From: an uncultured Jannaschia sp.
Lineage (GTDB): Bacteria > Pseudomonadota > Alphaproteobacteria > Rhodobacterales > Rhodobacteraceae
Length of the DNA stretch: 64,000 nucleotides
Direction of reading: 5' to 3'
Assembly (NCBI GenBank): GCA_947494145.1
Contig: CANLTZ010000010.1
Span: 62,001 to 126,000 of the forward strand
The notes beneath the pieces are model-generated. The model was not told the origin of the DNA and made no database searches. It saw only the letters and a program-made list of their open reading frames with translations. Of this stretch, positions 14,417 through 45,330 are shown piece after piece. A program made the position numbers and the translations under genes. The first letter of the stretch is position 1, and every line of letters begins with the position of its first letter.

Positions 14417-14459
14417 ACAGGGGCGGCGACGGGCGGCGCAGAGATCTCTTTGTGATCTA

Positions 14460-14506
14460 TGGCTGTTTTCGAAAAACCTGAGACGTCAGCTTTTTGAGAA
14501 CCGCCT
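14460..14506. repeat. Single-hairpin form of the TA-flanked palindromic element
   Basis: A 47-bp imperfect palindrome, starting TGGCTGTTTTCG and ending TGAGAACCGCCT, flanked by TA on both sides (14458-14459 and 14507-14508). It matches one half of the 110-bp elements at 28649, 29051, 29352, 40216 and 45219, including the AAAAACCTGAG and CGTCAGC interior. Confidence 0.6.
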
Positions 14507-19203: not shown

Positions 19204-19280
19204 TGGTGTTCCTAGCAGGACTCGAACCTGCAACCTCCGCATCCGCAACGCGATGCTCTGTCCGGTTGAGCTATAGGAAC
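19204..19280 (-). tRNA. tRNA-Arg, anticodon GCG
   Basis: A full cloverleaf: acceptor GTTCCTA/TAGGAAC, discriminator A, encoded CCA, D stem GCTC/GAGC with GG in the loop, T arm GCAGG-TTCGAGT-CCTGC. The anticodon stem TCGCG/TGCGG has two wobble pairs, and the loop TTGCGGA puts GCG at 34-36, which reads CGC and CGU. A20 and C35, arginine identity bases, are present. Bacteria normally read these codons with an ACG (inosine) tRNA, so GCG is unusual. Confidence 0.8.
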
Positions 19281-28222: not shown

Positions 28223-28648
28223 GGCGGGCCTTGGTTGGGACATCTTGTGGCCAGGGTCGCGTGTTATCGGGCGACCAGAGATCTGATCGTTCACAACTGG
28301 ACATGACATGCGCGTCTGGGCCCTTGTTTCGGCAATCGTGGTCGGTTTGAGCTTGGGCATGGCCCGGGCCGAACCATCGCGGGATGCCGTGGCCGTGGCG
28401 TCACTGATCTTTGATCGTATCATCATATTTTCCCTTGAAGGACGTCTTTCTGAACATGAAGCTGTGATCCGGGCATACCGCAAAGCGATCAGACGGCTTG
28501 GCGGGCGGATCATCGATGTGGACATGTTTGCTACGCTGATCCCAGAAAGCTTTTACGATGACATGCGTAAAGCCGCTGTTGAGGAGTTGGCCATCACGTT
28601 CTCTTCGTTCCTGACGAACGAACAACTGGCCGAAATCGTTTCGTTCTA

Positions 28649-28759
28649 TAACGGTTCTCGAAAAACCTGAGCCGTCAGCTTTTCGAGAAACGGTGCAACG
28701 TCAATGCGATGTCGGGACGTTTTTCGAAAGTACTGATTCAGGTTTTTCGAAAACCGCTT
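28649..28759 (+). repeat. TA-flanked palindromic element, copy A (inside a gene)
   Basis: A 111-bp element with terminal inverted repeats TAACGGTTCTCG and its partner CGAAAACCGCTT, flanked by TA (28647-28648, 28760-28761). It folds as two imperfect hairpins with a linker of about 20 bases. It carries no gene. The flanking TA and the clean join after excision point to transposition, as for IS630/mariner-type miniature elements. Confidence 0.8.
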
Positions 28760-29050
28760 TATCAGTCGCGTCCTGGACAAGCCCTGCGGGGTGTCCGTGA
28801 AGACCGAGGGTTTCCCCTATGGCCGCACAGTGTGAAGGGCGTGTTTCGTTCCGATGTTCTGGGCGATACCCTGGCGGCCGAAGACATCGTGACCTTGGAT
28901 GCTTTCCTGGAAAGCGCGAAAGTGCTCTGGCGCTTCGGCACCATGCGGAAGACCTTGCTGACACGGTGTGGCGTGTCTGGCGGAAGATGAATGGTTTGGG
29001 CTATGCCGGTGACCTGCTGGCGGCGCCTTTTCTGCCGGACATCCTGCTTA

Positions 29051-29160
29051 AAGCGGTTTTCGGAGAACCTGAACCAGTATTTTCGAAAAACGTCCCGCTA
29101 TCGCATTGATGTTGCACCGTTTCTCGAAATGCTGACGGCTCAGGTTTTCGAGAACCGCTA
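29051..29160 (-). repeat. TA-flanked palindromic element, copy B (inverted, inside a gene)
   Basis: A 110-bp copy in the opposite orientation to copy A, nearly identical, starting AAGCGGTTTTCGG and ending CGAGAACCGCTA. TA lies on the left (29049-29050); on the right the expected duplication reads TC. It interrupts the same broken gene as copy A. Confidence 0.78.
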
Positions 29161-29351
29161 TCGGCCGGACATTGTACAGTTTCCCAACCGGATCCACCGC
29201 AATGCGGCGTCGGATCGTTTGGGGGTAGGCGGGCTGTAGGGGCAATGCAATCGGCCCCAGCGTGGTTCATTGTGGAAAGAAACCCCCGAGGTGGCGCGCC
29301 CCGGAGATGTTTGACAGGGGCGGGGCGCCGAGCGCCGCCTGCCGCTATCTA

Positions 29352-29461
29352 TAGCGTTTCTCGAAAAATCTGAAGCATCAGCGTTTCGAGAAACGGTGCA
29401 ACATCAATGTGATGGCAGAAAATTTTCGAAAATACTGATTCAGGTTTTCCGAAAACCGCTT
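29352..29461 (+). repeat. TA-flanked palindromic element, copy C (at the fadB stop codon)
   Basis: A 110-bp copy in the orientation of copy A, starting TAGCGTTTCTCG and ending CGAAAACCGCTT. TA lies on the left (29350-29351) and CA on the right. Its last base forms part of the stop codon of the fadB-type gene on the minus strand. Confidence 0.78.
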
Positions 29462-31647
29462 CAGGCTGCTTGCGCCGCGGCGGCGCTGTAGAAGCTGCTG
29501 CCCTCGGTGGCCATTTTCGTCAGCAGCGCGGGGGTGGCGAAGCGGGGCCCGTGGGCGGCAGCAAGCTCCGCCGTGGTTTCCACCGCCCAATCGGCGCCCA
29601 CGATGTCCAGCCAACCGAAGGGGCCGCCCGACCAGGGCGCGAAGCCCCAGCCAAGGATGGCGCCCACATCGCCTTCGCGGATGTCCAGCAGCACGTCTTC
29701 CTCCAGCGCGCGGACGGCTTCGAGGACCTGGGCAAAGAGTAAGCGGTTCTGCACCTCGTGCAGATCGGGTTGGGTGTCGGCGATGGGGTACTTGGCAGAG
29801 ATGCCCTCCCACAGCCCCTGGCGTTTGCCTTTCTCGTCATAGGCATAGAAGCCGGCCTTGGTCTTGCGGCCCAGGCGGCCTTCGGCCTCCATCCAGAAGA
29901 TGACCTCATCGGCGGCATCATCATAGGCATCGCCCATAGCTGCCTTGGTGGCCTTGGCGATCTTGACGCCCAGGTCGATGGAGGTCTCATCGGTCAGTTG
30001 CAGGGGCCCGAGCGGCATGCCCACCAGTTTGGCCGCGTTTTCGATGAGGGACGGGTTCACGCCCTCCTTCACCATGCGGATCCCCTCATTGATGTAGGGG
30101 ATGATGCAGCGGTTGGCGTAGAAGAAGCGCGCATCGTTGACGACGATCGGGGTCTTGCGGATCTGGCGGACGAAATCGAGCGCCTTGGCCACGGCCGTGT
30201 CGCCCGTGGCCTGTCCCTTGATGATCTCGACCAGCAGCATCTTGTCGACGGGGCTGAAGAAGTGGATGCCGATGAAGTGCTCGGGCCGGACGCTGGCCTT
30301 GGCAAGTTCGGTGATGGGCAGGGTGGAGGTGTTGGTGGCAAAGATGCAATCGGCACCCACGATGGCTTCGACGGCCTTGGTCATCTCGGCCTTGACGCTC
30401 ACGTCTTCGAAGACGGCTTCTACGATCAGGTCGCAGCCCTTTAGCGCGTCCAGGTCGGTGGTGGCGGTGATGCGGCCCAGGACTTGGGCCTTCTTGTCTT
30501 CGGTAACCTTCTTGCGGGAAATCCCCTTGTCGAGGATGCCTTCGGAATAGGATTTGCCGCGGTCGGCGGCCTCCTGGTCGCGGTCGATGAGGACCACGTC
30601 GATCCCCGCATTGGCCGAGACATAGGCGATGCCCGCGCCCATCATGCCAGCCCCCAGGACGCCGACCTGTCTAACCTTCTGGTCGGAGACATCGGGGCGG
30701 TTTGCGCCCTTTTCCAGTGCTTCCTTGTTAATGAAAAGCGACCGGATCATTGCCTCGGACGAGGGGTTCAGCAGCACATGGGTGAACCAGCGCGCTTCGA
30801 TCTTGATGGCAGTGTCGAAGGGCACAAGCGCACCTTCGTAGACGGCCGACAGCAGGGCTTTGGCCGCCGGATAGACGCCTTGGGTCTTGCCGTTGACCAT
30901 GGCCGAGGCGCCCACGAAGGTGGGGAAGCCCGCGGGGTGGTAGGGCGCGCCGCCTGGCATCTTGTAGCCCTTGGCGTCCCAGGGTTTGACGATGTCCTTG
31001 TCGGTTGCTTCCAGCACCCAGGCGCGGGCGGCGGCCACGGGGTCGTCCACCACTTCGTCGATGAGGCCCGCGGATTTGGCCCGGGCCGGGTCGCTCATCT
31101 TGCCTTCCAGCAGGAAGGGCGAGGCGCCCATGGCGCCCAGCTTGCGCGCCAACCTTGTGGTGCCGCCCATGCCGGGGAAGATACCAACCATGATCTCGGG
31201 CAGGCCGATCTTGGCCTTGGGATTGGGCGCGCAGAAGATGCGGTGGCAGGCCAGCGGGATTTCCAGGCCAATGCCCAGGGCGGTGCCGGGCAGGGCGGCG
31301 GCGATGGGCTTGCCGCCCGTCAACTTCTTTGGGTCCATGCCCGCGCGCTCAATCTTGCGCAGGATGCCGTGGCAGCGCATCAGCCCGTCCATCAGGCCCT
31401 GGGCGGGGTTGTCGCCCGCTTCGGCCTTCATGCGGGCGATGATGTTGAGGTCCATGCCGCCTGCGAAGCTGTCCTTGCCCGACGTGATGACCACGCCCTT
31501 GACGTCGTCATCGGCCAGGGCCTGGTCGATACACGCTTCCAGGTCTTCCCAACCCTGGAGGCTGAGGACATTCATGGACTTGCCTTGCACGTCCCAGGTG
31601 ATGGTGGCCACGCCGTCGGCGTCTTTTGCCATGGTGAAATCGGTCAT
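29461..31647 (-). CDS. fadB: Bifunctional enoyl-CoA hydratase / 3-hydroxyacyl-CoA dehydrogenase
   Basis: A 728-residue beta-oxidation enzyme. The N-terminal crotonase domain has SFAGGMDLNIIARM and LGIGLEIPLACH. The 3-hydroxyacyl-CoA dehydrogenase part begins with VLGAGMMGAGIAYVSA (about residue 335), has VEAVFEDVSVK and HFFSPVDKMLLVEI, and ends with the helical C-terminal domain. It converts enoyl-CoA to 3-ketoacyl-CoA for the thiolase encoded upstream. GGAGATCC precedes the ATG at 31647. A small NTF2-like gene lies between it and the thiolase. The stop codon abuts a palindromic element. Naming as fadB rather than fadJ is by general similarity. Confidence 0.92.
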   Translation of the reverse strand: MTDFTMAKDADGVATITWDVQGKSMNVLSLQGWEDLEACIDQALADDDVKGVVITSGKDSFAGGMDLNIIARMKAEAGDNPAQGLMDGLMRCHGILRKIERAGMDPKKLTGGKPIAAALPGTALGIGLEIPLACHRIFCAPNPKAKIGLPEIMVGIFPGMGGTTRLARKLGAMGASPFLLEGKMSDPARAKSAGLIDEVVDDPVAAARAWVLEATDKDIVKPWDAKGYKMPGGAPYHPAGFPTFVGASAMVNGKTQGVYPAAKALLSAVYEGALVPFDTAIKIEARWFTHVLLNPSSEAMIRSLFINKEALEKGANRPDVSDQKVRQVGVLGAGMMGAGIAYVSANAGIDVVLIDRDQEAADRGKSYSEGILDKGISRKKVTEDKKAQVLGRITATTDLDALKGCDLIVEAVFEDVSVKAEMTKAVEAIVGADCIFATNTSTLPITELAKASVRPEHFIGIHFFSPVDKMLLVEIIKGQATGDTAVAKALDFVRQIRKTPIVVNDARFFYANRCIIPYINEGIRMVKEGVNPSLIENAAKLVGMPLGPLQLTDETSIDLGVKIAKATKAAMGDAYDDAADEVIFWMEAEGRLGRKTKAGFYAYDEKGKRQGLWEGISAKYPIADTQPDLHEVQNRLLFAQVLEAVRALEEDVLLDIREGDVGAILGWGFAPWSGGPFGWLDIVGADWAVETTAELAAAHGPRFATPALLTKMATEGSSFYSAAAAQAA

Positions 31648-38896: not shown

Positions 38897-40216
38897 GTGT
38901 CTGGCGCCGTGACCGGGCTGACCCATCGCCGCGTGCTCAAGATTGCGGTGCCGGTGGTCTTGTCAAATGCGACGGTCCCGATCCTGGGTGCTGTGGATAC
39001 GGGTGTCGTGGGCCAGATGGGCCAGGCCGCACCCATTGCCGCGGTGGGTGTCGGGGCCATCGTCCTAAGCGCAGTCTATTGGATTTTTGGCTTTCTGCGC
39101 ATGGGCACGACGGGGCTGGCTGCGCAGGCCATCGGGGCCGAAGATGATGGTGAACTGGCCGCGCTTTTGACCCGCGCCCTGCTGATTGCGGGGGCGGCGG
39201 GGGCAAGCCTGATCATGCTGCAATGGGTGATTTTCGCAGGGGCCTTCGCCCTGTCACCCGCCGCCCCGGATGTGGAGGCCATGGCGCGCGACTACATGGC
39301 CATTCGCATTTGGTCGTCGCCTGCGGCCATCGCGGTCTATGGTCTGACGGGCTGGCTCATCGCGCAGGAGCGGACGGCCGCTGTACTGGTCGTGCAGGTG
39401 GCCATGAACGGCGTCAACATCTTGCTGGATTTGTGGTTCGTGCTGGGGCTGGACTGGGGCGTGCCCGGCGTGGCCTGGGCCACCTTCATCGCGGAATGGT
39501 CCGGCGCGGCCTTGGGGCTTTGGTTTTGCCGCGCGGCCTTCGCCGTGCCCGCCTGGCGCGATTGGCCGCGTGTTTTCGACCGGGCGCGCCTGCGGCGCAT
39601 GGCGGCGGTGAACGGGGATATCCTTATCCGCTCGGTCCTGTTGCAGGCCACCTTCGTGTCGTTCTTGCTGTGGGGTGGCGAATTCGGGACGGTGACGCTG
39701 GCCGCGAACCAAGTGCTTTTGCAGTTTCTTTACATCACCGCCTATGCGCTCGATGGTTTTGCGTTCGCGGCTGAGGCGCTGGTGGGCCGCTACTTTGGCG
39801 CGCAGCAGCGGCACGCCCTGCGCCGCGCGGTGGTGATGACGAGCCTTTGGGGCCTTGGGACGACCCTTGCCCTCGCCATCGCGTTCGCCGCGCTTGGCCC
39901 CTTGATCGTGGATATCATGGCGACCGACCCGGAGGTGCGCGCAATGGCGCGTCTCTATCTGCCGTGGATGGTGGCCGCGCCATTGATCGGGGTGGCGGCT
40001 TGGATGCTCGATGGGGTTTTCATCGGGGCCACGCGCACGGCAGACATGCGCAACATGATGGTGGTGAGTTTTCTGGCCTATGGGGCGGCCGTCCTGGCCT
40101 TGGTGCCCGCCTTGGACAATCACGGGCTCTGGGCAGCGTTGATGGTGTCGTTCGCGGTGCGGGGGCTGACCCTGGGCTGGCGCTATCCGGCGTTGGAGCG
40201 CGCGGCGGGGGCATAA
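38897..40216 (+). CDS. MATE family efflux transporter
   Basis: A 439-residue inner-membrane exporter with about 12 hydrophobic helices in two halves. Signs include LKIAVPVVLSNATVPILGAVDTGVVGQMG in helix 1, GTTGLAAQAIGAEDDGE and a second-half repeat QATFVSFLLWGGEFGTVTLAANQVLLQF. MATE proteins exchange Na+ or H+ for drugs or metabolites. The frame opens at a GTG (38897) with no good ribosome site; another GTG four codons on is possible. Its TAA stop is formed by a TA duplication plus the first base of the palindromic element at 40216. Confidence 0.85.
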   Translation: MSGAVTGLTHRRVLKIAVPVVLSNATVPILGAVDTGVVGQMGQAAPIAAVGVGAIVLSAVYWIFGFLRMGTTGLAAQAIGAEDDGELAALLTRALLIAGAAGASLIMLQWVIFAGAFALSPAAPDVEAMARDYMAIRIWSSPAAIAVYGLTGWLIAQERTAAVLVVQVAMNGVNILLDLWFVLGLDWGVPGVAWATFIAEWSGAALGLWFCRAAFAVPAWRDWPRVFDRARLRRMAAVNGDILIRSVLLQATFVSFLLWGGEFGTVTLAANQVLLQFLYITAYALDGFAFAAEALVGRYFGAQQRHALRRAVVMTSLWGLGTTLALAIAFAALGPLIVDIMATDPEVRAMARLYLPWMVAAPLIGVAAWMLDGVFIGATRTADMRNMMVVSFLAYGAAVLALVPALDNHGLWAALMVSFAVRGLTLGWRYPALERAAGA

Positions 40217-40328
40217 AGCGGTTTTTTCGGAAAACCTGAATCAGCATTTCCGAAAAACGTCCTGTTATCGCATTGATGTCGCGACGTTTCTCAAAAAACT
40301 GATGCTTCGGGTTTTTCGAGAAACGCTA
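40216..40328 (-). repeat. TA-flanked palindromic element, copy D
   Basis: A 113-bp copy in the orientation of copy B, starting AAGCGGTTTTTTCGG and ending CGAGAAACGCTA, with TA on both sides (40214-40215, 40329-40330). It lies between the convergent MATE gene and the decayed FGE-like gene. Confidence 0.78.
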
Positions 40329-40331
40329 TAG

Positions 40332-45194: not shown

Positions 45195-45218
45195 ACCGAT
45201 TTCGTCCAATGCAGCCAA

Positions 45219-45330
45219 TGCGATTTTCGAAAGGCCGACAATCAGTATCTTTGAAAGCCACGCGACATCACATTGATGTTGAAGTGTTTCTCAAGAAGGC
45301 TGGTGGCTCAAGTCTTTCGAGGACCGCTCA
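45219..45330 (-). repeat. TA-type palindromic element, copy E (worn)
   Basis: A 112-bp diverged copy in the orientation of copies B and D, starting ATGCGATTTTCG and ending CGAGGACCGCTC, with the shared interior CACATTGATGTTG. The flanking TA has been lost. It lies after the SRAP gene. Confidence 0.65.

Follow-up and report, generated by a model that had tools for sequence, protein, structure and literature searches.

TA-flanked miniature elements of an uncultured Jannaschia share a one-ended GANTC site with alphaproteobacterial IS630 transposons

The window analyzed here, a stretch of 64,000 nucleotides from the genome of an uncultured Jannaschia sp. (contig CANLTZ010000010.1), contains five copies of a miniature element, A to E, all located where a preliminary description of this DNA had placed them. 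The coordinates given are those of the element bodies, with the TA dinucleotides excluded. Copy A (28649..28759, minus strand; 131.5 bits against the family profile) has TA on both sides, at 28647-28648 and 28760-28761, and carries a site for the methylase CcrM, GATTC, at 28735-28739. Copy B (29051..29160, plus strand) is bordered by TA at 29049-29050 and by TC on the other side; its CcrM site is lost and reads GAACC at 29071-29075. Copy C (29352..29461, minus strand) has TA at 29350-29351, CA at 29462-29463 (TG as read from the element) and GATTC at 29437-29441. Farther along lie copy D (40216..40328, plus strand), with TA on both sides (40214-40215 and 40329-40330) and GAATC at 40238-40242, and copy E (about 45217..45328, plus strand), which is decayed, has no TA flanks and has lost its CcrM site. 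Profile scores from nhmmer separate A to D, at 104.7–131.5 bits, from E, at 54.8 bits. These flanks are as first described, with TA on both sides of A and D, and on one side of B and C with one base changed on the other. The same description had A, B and C nearly identical, which goes too far, A and B being 91% identical. It had also found no gene in the copies, and indeed the ORFs listed around A, B and C merely enter or cross them. A half-size (one-arm) relic of the same family, absent from the earlier list, lies at 14459..14503 (minus strand; 29.8 bits, model positions 70-114). When the whole window was searched with Rfam at gathering scores, no RNA family fell on the element; the sole match was a tRNA, whose gene is at 19207-19280 (minus strand).

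Copies of the element occur in this genome, a draft assembly of 4.9 Mb in 53 contigs, far beyond chance. The pattern of the element ends, with up to three mismatches allowed, has 76 forward and 73 reverse matches, 149 in all, versus 0 for the reversed control pattern. Such a number of end matches implies a family of about 75 copies of roughly 110 bp. BLAST with copy B, in which the best 40 of 101 candidates were scored, returned at least 43 matches, at least 40 of them near full length at 87–100% identity. In the fetched stretches, nhmmer found 68 separate hits, of which 10 fell short of 105 bp; the other 58, minus one at a contig edge, form the set of 57 copies used below. One-arm forms are also present in the genome in small number, for example at C12:22764-22808 and C2:239412-239459.

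The preliminary description took these sequences for a mobile, MITE-like family that targets TA, and this interpretation is supported by the flanks, by the distribution of the element among congeners and by an uninterrupted homologous site. TA is found on both sides of 44 of the 57 copies (on the left of 49 and on the right of 51), so that it marks insertion sites well outside the window. The left triplet is CTA in 29 copies and TTA in 17, and the right triplet is TAG in 42 and TAA in 8, so that the insertion target is mostly, or close to, CTAG. IS630 elements are known to prefer CTAG. One copy interrupts an IS630-type transposase gene (C9:148714), and another (C19:82882) interrupts a gene that, judging from its protein sequence, we take to be IS91-like. 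Nor are the insertions always orthologous: the element has no match in any of the 19 further genomes examined within the genus, and the congener G018 carries an uninterrupted homologue of the C19:82882 locus. With the element and one TA removed, this locus gives an ungapped 342 bp match at 79% identity to G018, where the target reads CTGG in place of the CTAG of the studied genome. Six joined sites were searched in the genus, scoring 15 candidates per genome, and no site but this matched far through the junction; four others gave matches that were one-sided or ended within about 10 bases of the junction, and one had no listed match outside the studied genome. More distant relatives of the element were found in at least 6 of 393 other genomes of the family, a lower bound because two candidates were scored per genome. 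Across the class, a search with a two-arm model yielded at least 5 of 289 genomes, the studied genome included, again a lower bound given strict filters and 12 scored candidates per genome. Spread by plasmids or phages was considered and set aside, the element being unmatched in plasmid and phage collections, from which close records may be left out.

Each element had originally been described as two hairpins. Compensatory changes across related families favor this anatomy, but the lowest-energy fold of a single copy does not display it: that fold is one long hairpin, with z-scores of -3.7 to -8.5, because the two arms of the studied family resemble each other. In an alignment of 34 related elements (A3), two separate arms account for the data well, with 92.7% of cells paired. 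Of 27 arm pairs, 13 are changed on both sides; none of 500 shuffles, which ignore relatedness, reaches any of the measures, and sliding the arm partners lowers all of them. One caveat to this alignment is that 28 of its 34 rows came from a search pattern that fixes most of the outer strand of the left arm and requires GAATCA, and for this reason the left arm and GANTC are biased in it. The right arm was free in that pattern, and there 10 of 13 pairs are changed on both sides; GANTC was counted on other sets. A single long hairpin as the true anatomy was rejected, since the halves differ in related families while each arm covaries. By the classification rule applied to 91 pattern matches, the right end was identified in 67, 6 were one-arm elements and 18 stayed unclassified. 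Those six are about 50 bp long and TA-ended. One-arm elements of this size were seen at L071, L119, L143, L159, L160, L181 and L201, mostly with TA at the ends, and the stem of L143 has matching changes in both strands. One-arm elements may be deletion products or may be independently mobile. Separately, an intact element lies at 1476-1591 of L124, on a contig labeled as a Verrucomicrobia metagenome bin; mis-binning seems likelier than transfer.

Strong hairpins and covarying arms would also suit host regulatory elements, such as terminators, RNA structures or CcrM-linked control sites, that are not mobile DNA at all. In the same direction, 15 of 44 TA sites supply the stop codon for an ORF of 100 codons or more, but this share is hardly above that of control sites (26 of 93), and a preference for insertion at stop codons was discarded as not clearly enriched. 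Together with the TA flanks, the CTAG target, the absence from all congeners examined, the two insertions into transposase genes and the uninterrupted homologous locus, this makes the regulatory interpretation very improbable in our judgment.

As mobile DNA, the miniature, gene-less elements look like stripped-down IS630-type transposons. A search for an IS630-type transposase with the same ends had been suggested at the outset, and we find IS630s that resemble both ends of the element within the same bacterial family, although the likeness stops short of identity. When the N-terminal portion of an IS630 transposase served as query, 39 of 295 genomes of the family gave matches. Three of the elements (L102, L105 and L111, about 1056 bp) start with TAAAG, read from the transposase start, and carry ACCTGAATC or ACTTGAATC about 20 bases into the left end; the right end, read inward, is TAAAGC...ACCTGAGACAT. 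Miniatures have the same asymmetry, with ACCTGAATCA at one end and ACCTGA with CATC at the other. Counted over 30 bases, these three IS630s agree with the nearest of three miniature families at 24–25 positions on the right and 19–22 on the left; for six other IS630s the values are 16–19 and 15–19. Compared with the studied genome's own family, L102, L105 and L111 agree at no more than 21 of 30 positions at either end. In the end-calling procedure described below, L111 passed, and L102 (p 0.20) and L105 (p 0.26) fell below the cut. A DDE_3 domain and weak helix-turn-helix matches are present in the ORFs of L102 and L111, the transposase of the latter lying in two overlapping frames. An intact IS630 partner was not found in the studied genome, where PF13358 matches two places of the 53-contig draft, one broken by a copy of the miniature and the other decayed. 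The broken element, at C9 (L033 1771-2940; ends CTAGAGCGCGTCTGG), was considered as a direct partner and rejected: its ends (TAGAGCGCGTCTGG) are related but different, and TAAAG-type IS630s fit better.

Comparison of IS630 ends reveals a marked asymmetry of GANTC. We assembled 147 IS630 loci from samples of the family, the class and the phylum, and called their ends from the outer 16 bp after TA, outside the GANTC site, against a mispairing null with p at most 0.05. Ends were called at 64 loci (47 of 112 in the class and 17 of 35 others), from 63 distinct genomes. The 83 loci below the cut were left out of the counts; they include carriers of the site by eye (such as L102, L213, L214, L216, L218 and L232), and in many of the 83 no ends were discerned. 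Within the class, GANTC stands at bases 21-25 after TA in 28 of 47 left ends and in none of 47 right ends. All 28 of these belong to the 29 elements whose left ends begin TA[AG]AG, which form 28 clusters at 80% DNA identity and have the site in 0 of 29 right ends; when those ends are shuffled with dinucleotides preserved, on average 0.18 and never more than 2 of 29 carry it. Among the 17 IS630s outside the class, it occurs at no left end and at no right end. The lone exception, L099, reads GGATC. A count on the motif only, with no pairing of ends, gives a similar picture: in the class, the site stands in 46 of 55 left ends but in none of 55 right ends, and outside it in 0 of 8 and 0 of 3. The nine left misses in this count are L099, L256 (GGATC; below the end cut), L289 and six others, which are probably false ends. 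The end calling assigned L247 a false pair, and its likelier ends carry GATTC. In a second end type, TATACC (L264, L272 and L297), all three left ends show GACTC at this distance from TA, as against 0 of 6 right ends of the class, counts that are too few to stress.

Column by column, the left ends of the 29 TA[AG]AG elements are variable at positions 7-22, after which come G in 29, A in 28, the variable N, T in 29 and C in 29. The middle letter is A in 22, T in 4 and G in 3, variation that is compatible with what the methylase site allows. In the same columns of the right end, G is found in 26 and C in 27 of 29, but A in 12 and T in 11. This contrast suggests that a factor recognizing both ends could account for the G and C, and that another keeps the A and T one-sided. 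The right end also encodes the C-terminus of the transposase, which may account for part of its conservation. It is conceivable that GANTC is simply part of the transposase binding sequence at one end and that methylation is irrelevant, an explanation we regard as unlikely. The frequent G and C at both ends are contact-like, as this would have it, but A and T fixed only on the left and a varying N are harder to accommodate, as is the absence of the site from the 17 IS630s outside the class.

GANTC is also unevenly distributed inside these IS630s. The first 100 bp, on the side of the transposase promoter, hold 81 sites, or 2.79 per 100 bp, where shuffling gives a mean of 19 and a maximum of 28. 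The bodies hold 10, or 0.04 per 100 bp, where shuffling gives a mean of 117 and a minimum of 92. Host flanks have 0.17 per 100 bp, so that the bodies are about four-fold lower. A contrast of this kind between end and body is absent from all eight control motifs, of which TCNGA is the highest in the first 100 bp, at 0.97 versus 0.34 in the body. A second GANTC occurs at offset 28-40 in 20 of 28 left ends and 0 of 28 right ends. Neither these extra, inner sites nor the nearly GANTC-free body follows from a binding sequence at one end. Both the clustering and its location, with two to five sites (mostly two or three) in the first 100 bp of 28 of the 29 IS630s, upstream of the transposase gene, would suit a narrower account, in which GANTC serves only the transcription of the transposase from a CcrM-dependent promoter and miniatures inherit it with the left end. 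This version does not exclude wider control by CcrM; taken by itself, we consider it possible but somewhat doubtful. Against it, only one GANTC is at a fixed position, and that one is inside the terminal 25 bases.

The miniatures of the studied genome carry GANTC at bases 21-25 of one end only, and the site is kept in 43 of 57 copies and lost in 14. Of the 43 copies that are equal in length, 36 retain it, a value at the median for comparable positions. A sub-lineage of four full copies reads GGATC, and therefore the site is not essential for amplification. The site is thus a property of the elements that founded families and is not preserved at each place of insertion. Such ordinary loss is in line with both a binding sequence and a promoter-only role. 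Among 17 related elements, one of them one-arm and one partial, 13 have the site at one end, 4 have none and none has it at both ends, a count that may lean toward the site, as the elements were found with GAATC-containing queries. That gene-less miniatures in different bacterial families of the class keep a one-ended site in this proportion speaks against a role in transposase transcription only. Three of the 17, all in G600, come from a second family of the class and carry GATTC with other surrounding sequence.

Hosts of site-bearing IS630s generally encode CcrM. We looked for the methylase in two ways: its RAMA domain matched in 38 of 64 genomes, in 37 of them over the cut-off, and the full protein matched in 19 of 48 genomes, with 13 of these matches near full length and above 500 bits; weaker methylase matches, of 43–205 bits, were counted as CcrM absent. 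By either search, CcrM is present in 27 of 28 hosts of site carriers. The exception, G470, keeps the site with no CcrM detected, which suits a binding sequence independent of methylation. Of 36 loci with called ends that lack the site, 7 lie in CcrM hosts and 25 in hosts without CcrM (7 of 32 tested). Fisher's exact test for site versus host CcrM gives 1.5e-9, a value that ignores the relatedness of the IS630s, a confounder. Neither search gave a CcrM hit in G546, G579 or G455, which carry site-bearing IS630s below the end cut.

Taken together, we think it probable that the miniatures are moved by an IS630 transposase into TA, preferably CTAG, and that CcrM controls this movement in one way or another. 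An IS630-type (Tc1/mariner-like) transposase acting in trans would bind both ends of the miniature, excise it and paste it into TA, preferably within CTAG. CcrM would methylate GANTC at bases 21-25 of one end, and the methylation state of this site may decide whether the transposase uses that end, whether the transposase is transcribed, or both; in full IS630s, the marked end is the one upstream of the transposase gene. Movement would then be favored after passage of the replication fork and before CcrM acts, so that jumping could be timed by host DNA replication. Possibly only one sister copy would move, as Dam arranges for IS10 in E. coli; with a single marked end, fork passage could license one sister copy alone. 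Here we infer CcrM-controlled transposition by its parallel to Dam and IS10. Points against CcrM control are the ordinary loss of the site, the GGATC copies, the hosts G470, G546, G579 and G455, the lack of GANTC in L099, L256 and L289, and the relatedness that confounds the host association. On the partner side, it also counts against this reading that no intact IS630 was found in the studied genome and that L102 and L105 fell below the end cut. A broader proposition is that alphaproteobacterial IS630s and their miniatures, CIR-like repeats included, are CcrM-gated, with a left end that is usable only when un- or half-methylated and a GANTC cluster that ties expression to the same window of time; it would explain both the movement of CIR-like repeats and their GANTC, and we see about even chances that it is right.

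The resemblance to CIR, the Caulobacter CcrM-associated intergenic repeats, and the asymmetry of GANTC both go beyond what the preliminary description had observed. CIR were tied to CcrM sites in 2003 (Chen and Shapiro, via PMC2229807) and, as summarized in the passages of that review used here, are about 110 bp long and consist of two arms and a linker, with TA termini, GANTC at the loop of one arm and no ORF (PMC2229807); their mobility and role are left unexplained in those passages. The studied family is alike in its length of about 110 bp, its two inverted-repeat arms and linker, its TA termini, the GANTC of one arm loop, the lack of an ORF and its occurrence in Alphaproteobacteria. It differs in that CIR are listed without a terminal inverted repeat (PMC2229807), whereas folded copies of the studied family form whole-length hairpins, and in that CIR are listed as not intragenic (PMC2229807), whereas copies here lie inside IS630 and IS91-like transposase genes. 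It also has IS630-like ends, in contrast to the unexplained mobility of CIR in the same source (PMC2229807). Since the comparison is by description and two CIR features are not found, we file the elements as CIR-like and not as CIR. CIR-like repeats look like emptied IS630 ends, with the site as part of the transposon end, which offers an explanation both for their movement and for the presence of the site.

The nearest known pairing of a miniature with an IS630 is that of RUP and IS630-Spn1 in Streptococcus pneumoniae. RUP is 107 bp long, has many copies, targets TA and has ends in common with IS630-Spn1, and its insertions inactivate IS transposase genes, as the review reports (PMC2229807). 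Size, copy number, TA target, shared ends and insertion into IS genes are thus all alike; RUP differs in belonging to another host phylum and in having no DNA motif in Table 1 of that review (PMC2229807). Likeness to the IS630/Tc1/mariner group extends to the TA duplication and to the DDE_3 transposase of the candidate partners. In ISY100, an IS630 relative that duplicates TA, the transposase binds and protects 24-bp ends, and 30 bp from either side are enough, according to the sections of PMC2170065 used here. Because ISY100 protects a 24-bp end (PMC2170065), bases 21-25 would fall at the inner edge of the transposase footprint. Unlike ISY100, the elements described here have a one-ended GANTC, a GANTC-rich end on the transposase side and a GANTC-poor body.

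Among the titles and abstract openings listed in our literature search, to which subscription journals are mostly outside, none reports a link between CcrM and a transposon, and two papers on CcrM (PMC3973325 and PMC11514494) have 0 occurrences of the string "transpos" in their main texts. From the sequences compared, the wider result is a fixed, one-ended CcrM site common to the miniatures and to IS630s of the class. The closest precedent for its use is IS10/Tn10, in which Dam methylation controls both transposase binding and transcription and couples movement to replication, as stated in the portions of the papers drawn on (PMC5371812; for Dam control also PMC9296519). A methylase site at a fixed place in the end, as in 28 of 29 TA[AG]AG IS630s, is the shared feature, and gating is proposed here by analogy. 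IS10 differs in that its transposase is of another family and its methylase is other than CcrM, with its GANTC site; the fixed site is at one end only in the elements studied here. If the control is real, it would place a further methylase–transposon pairing beside those with Dam, with another family of transposase and a methylase that is itself cell-cycle-regulated.
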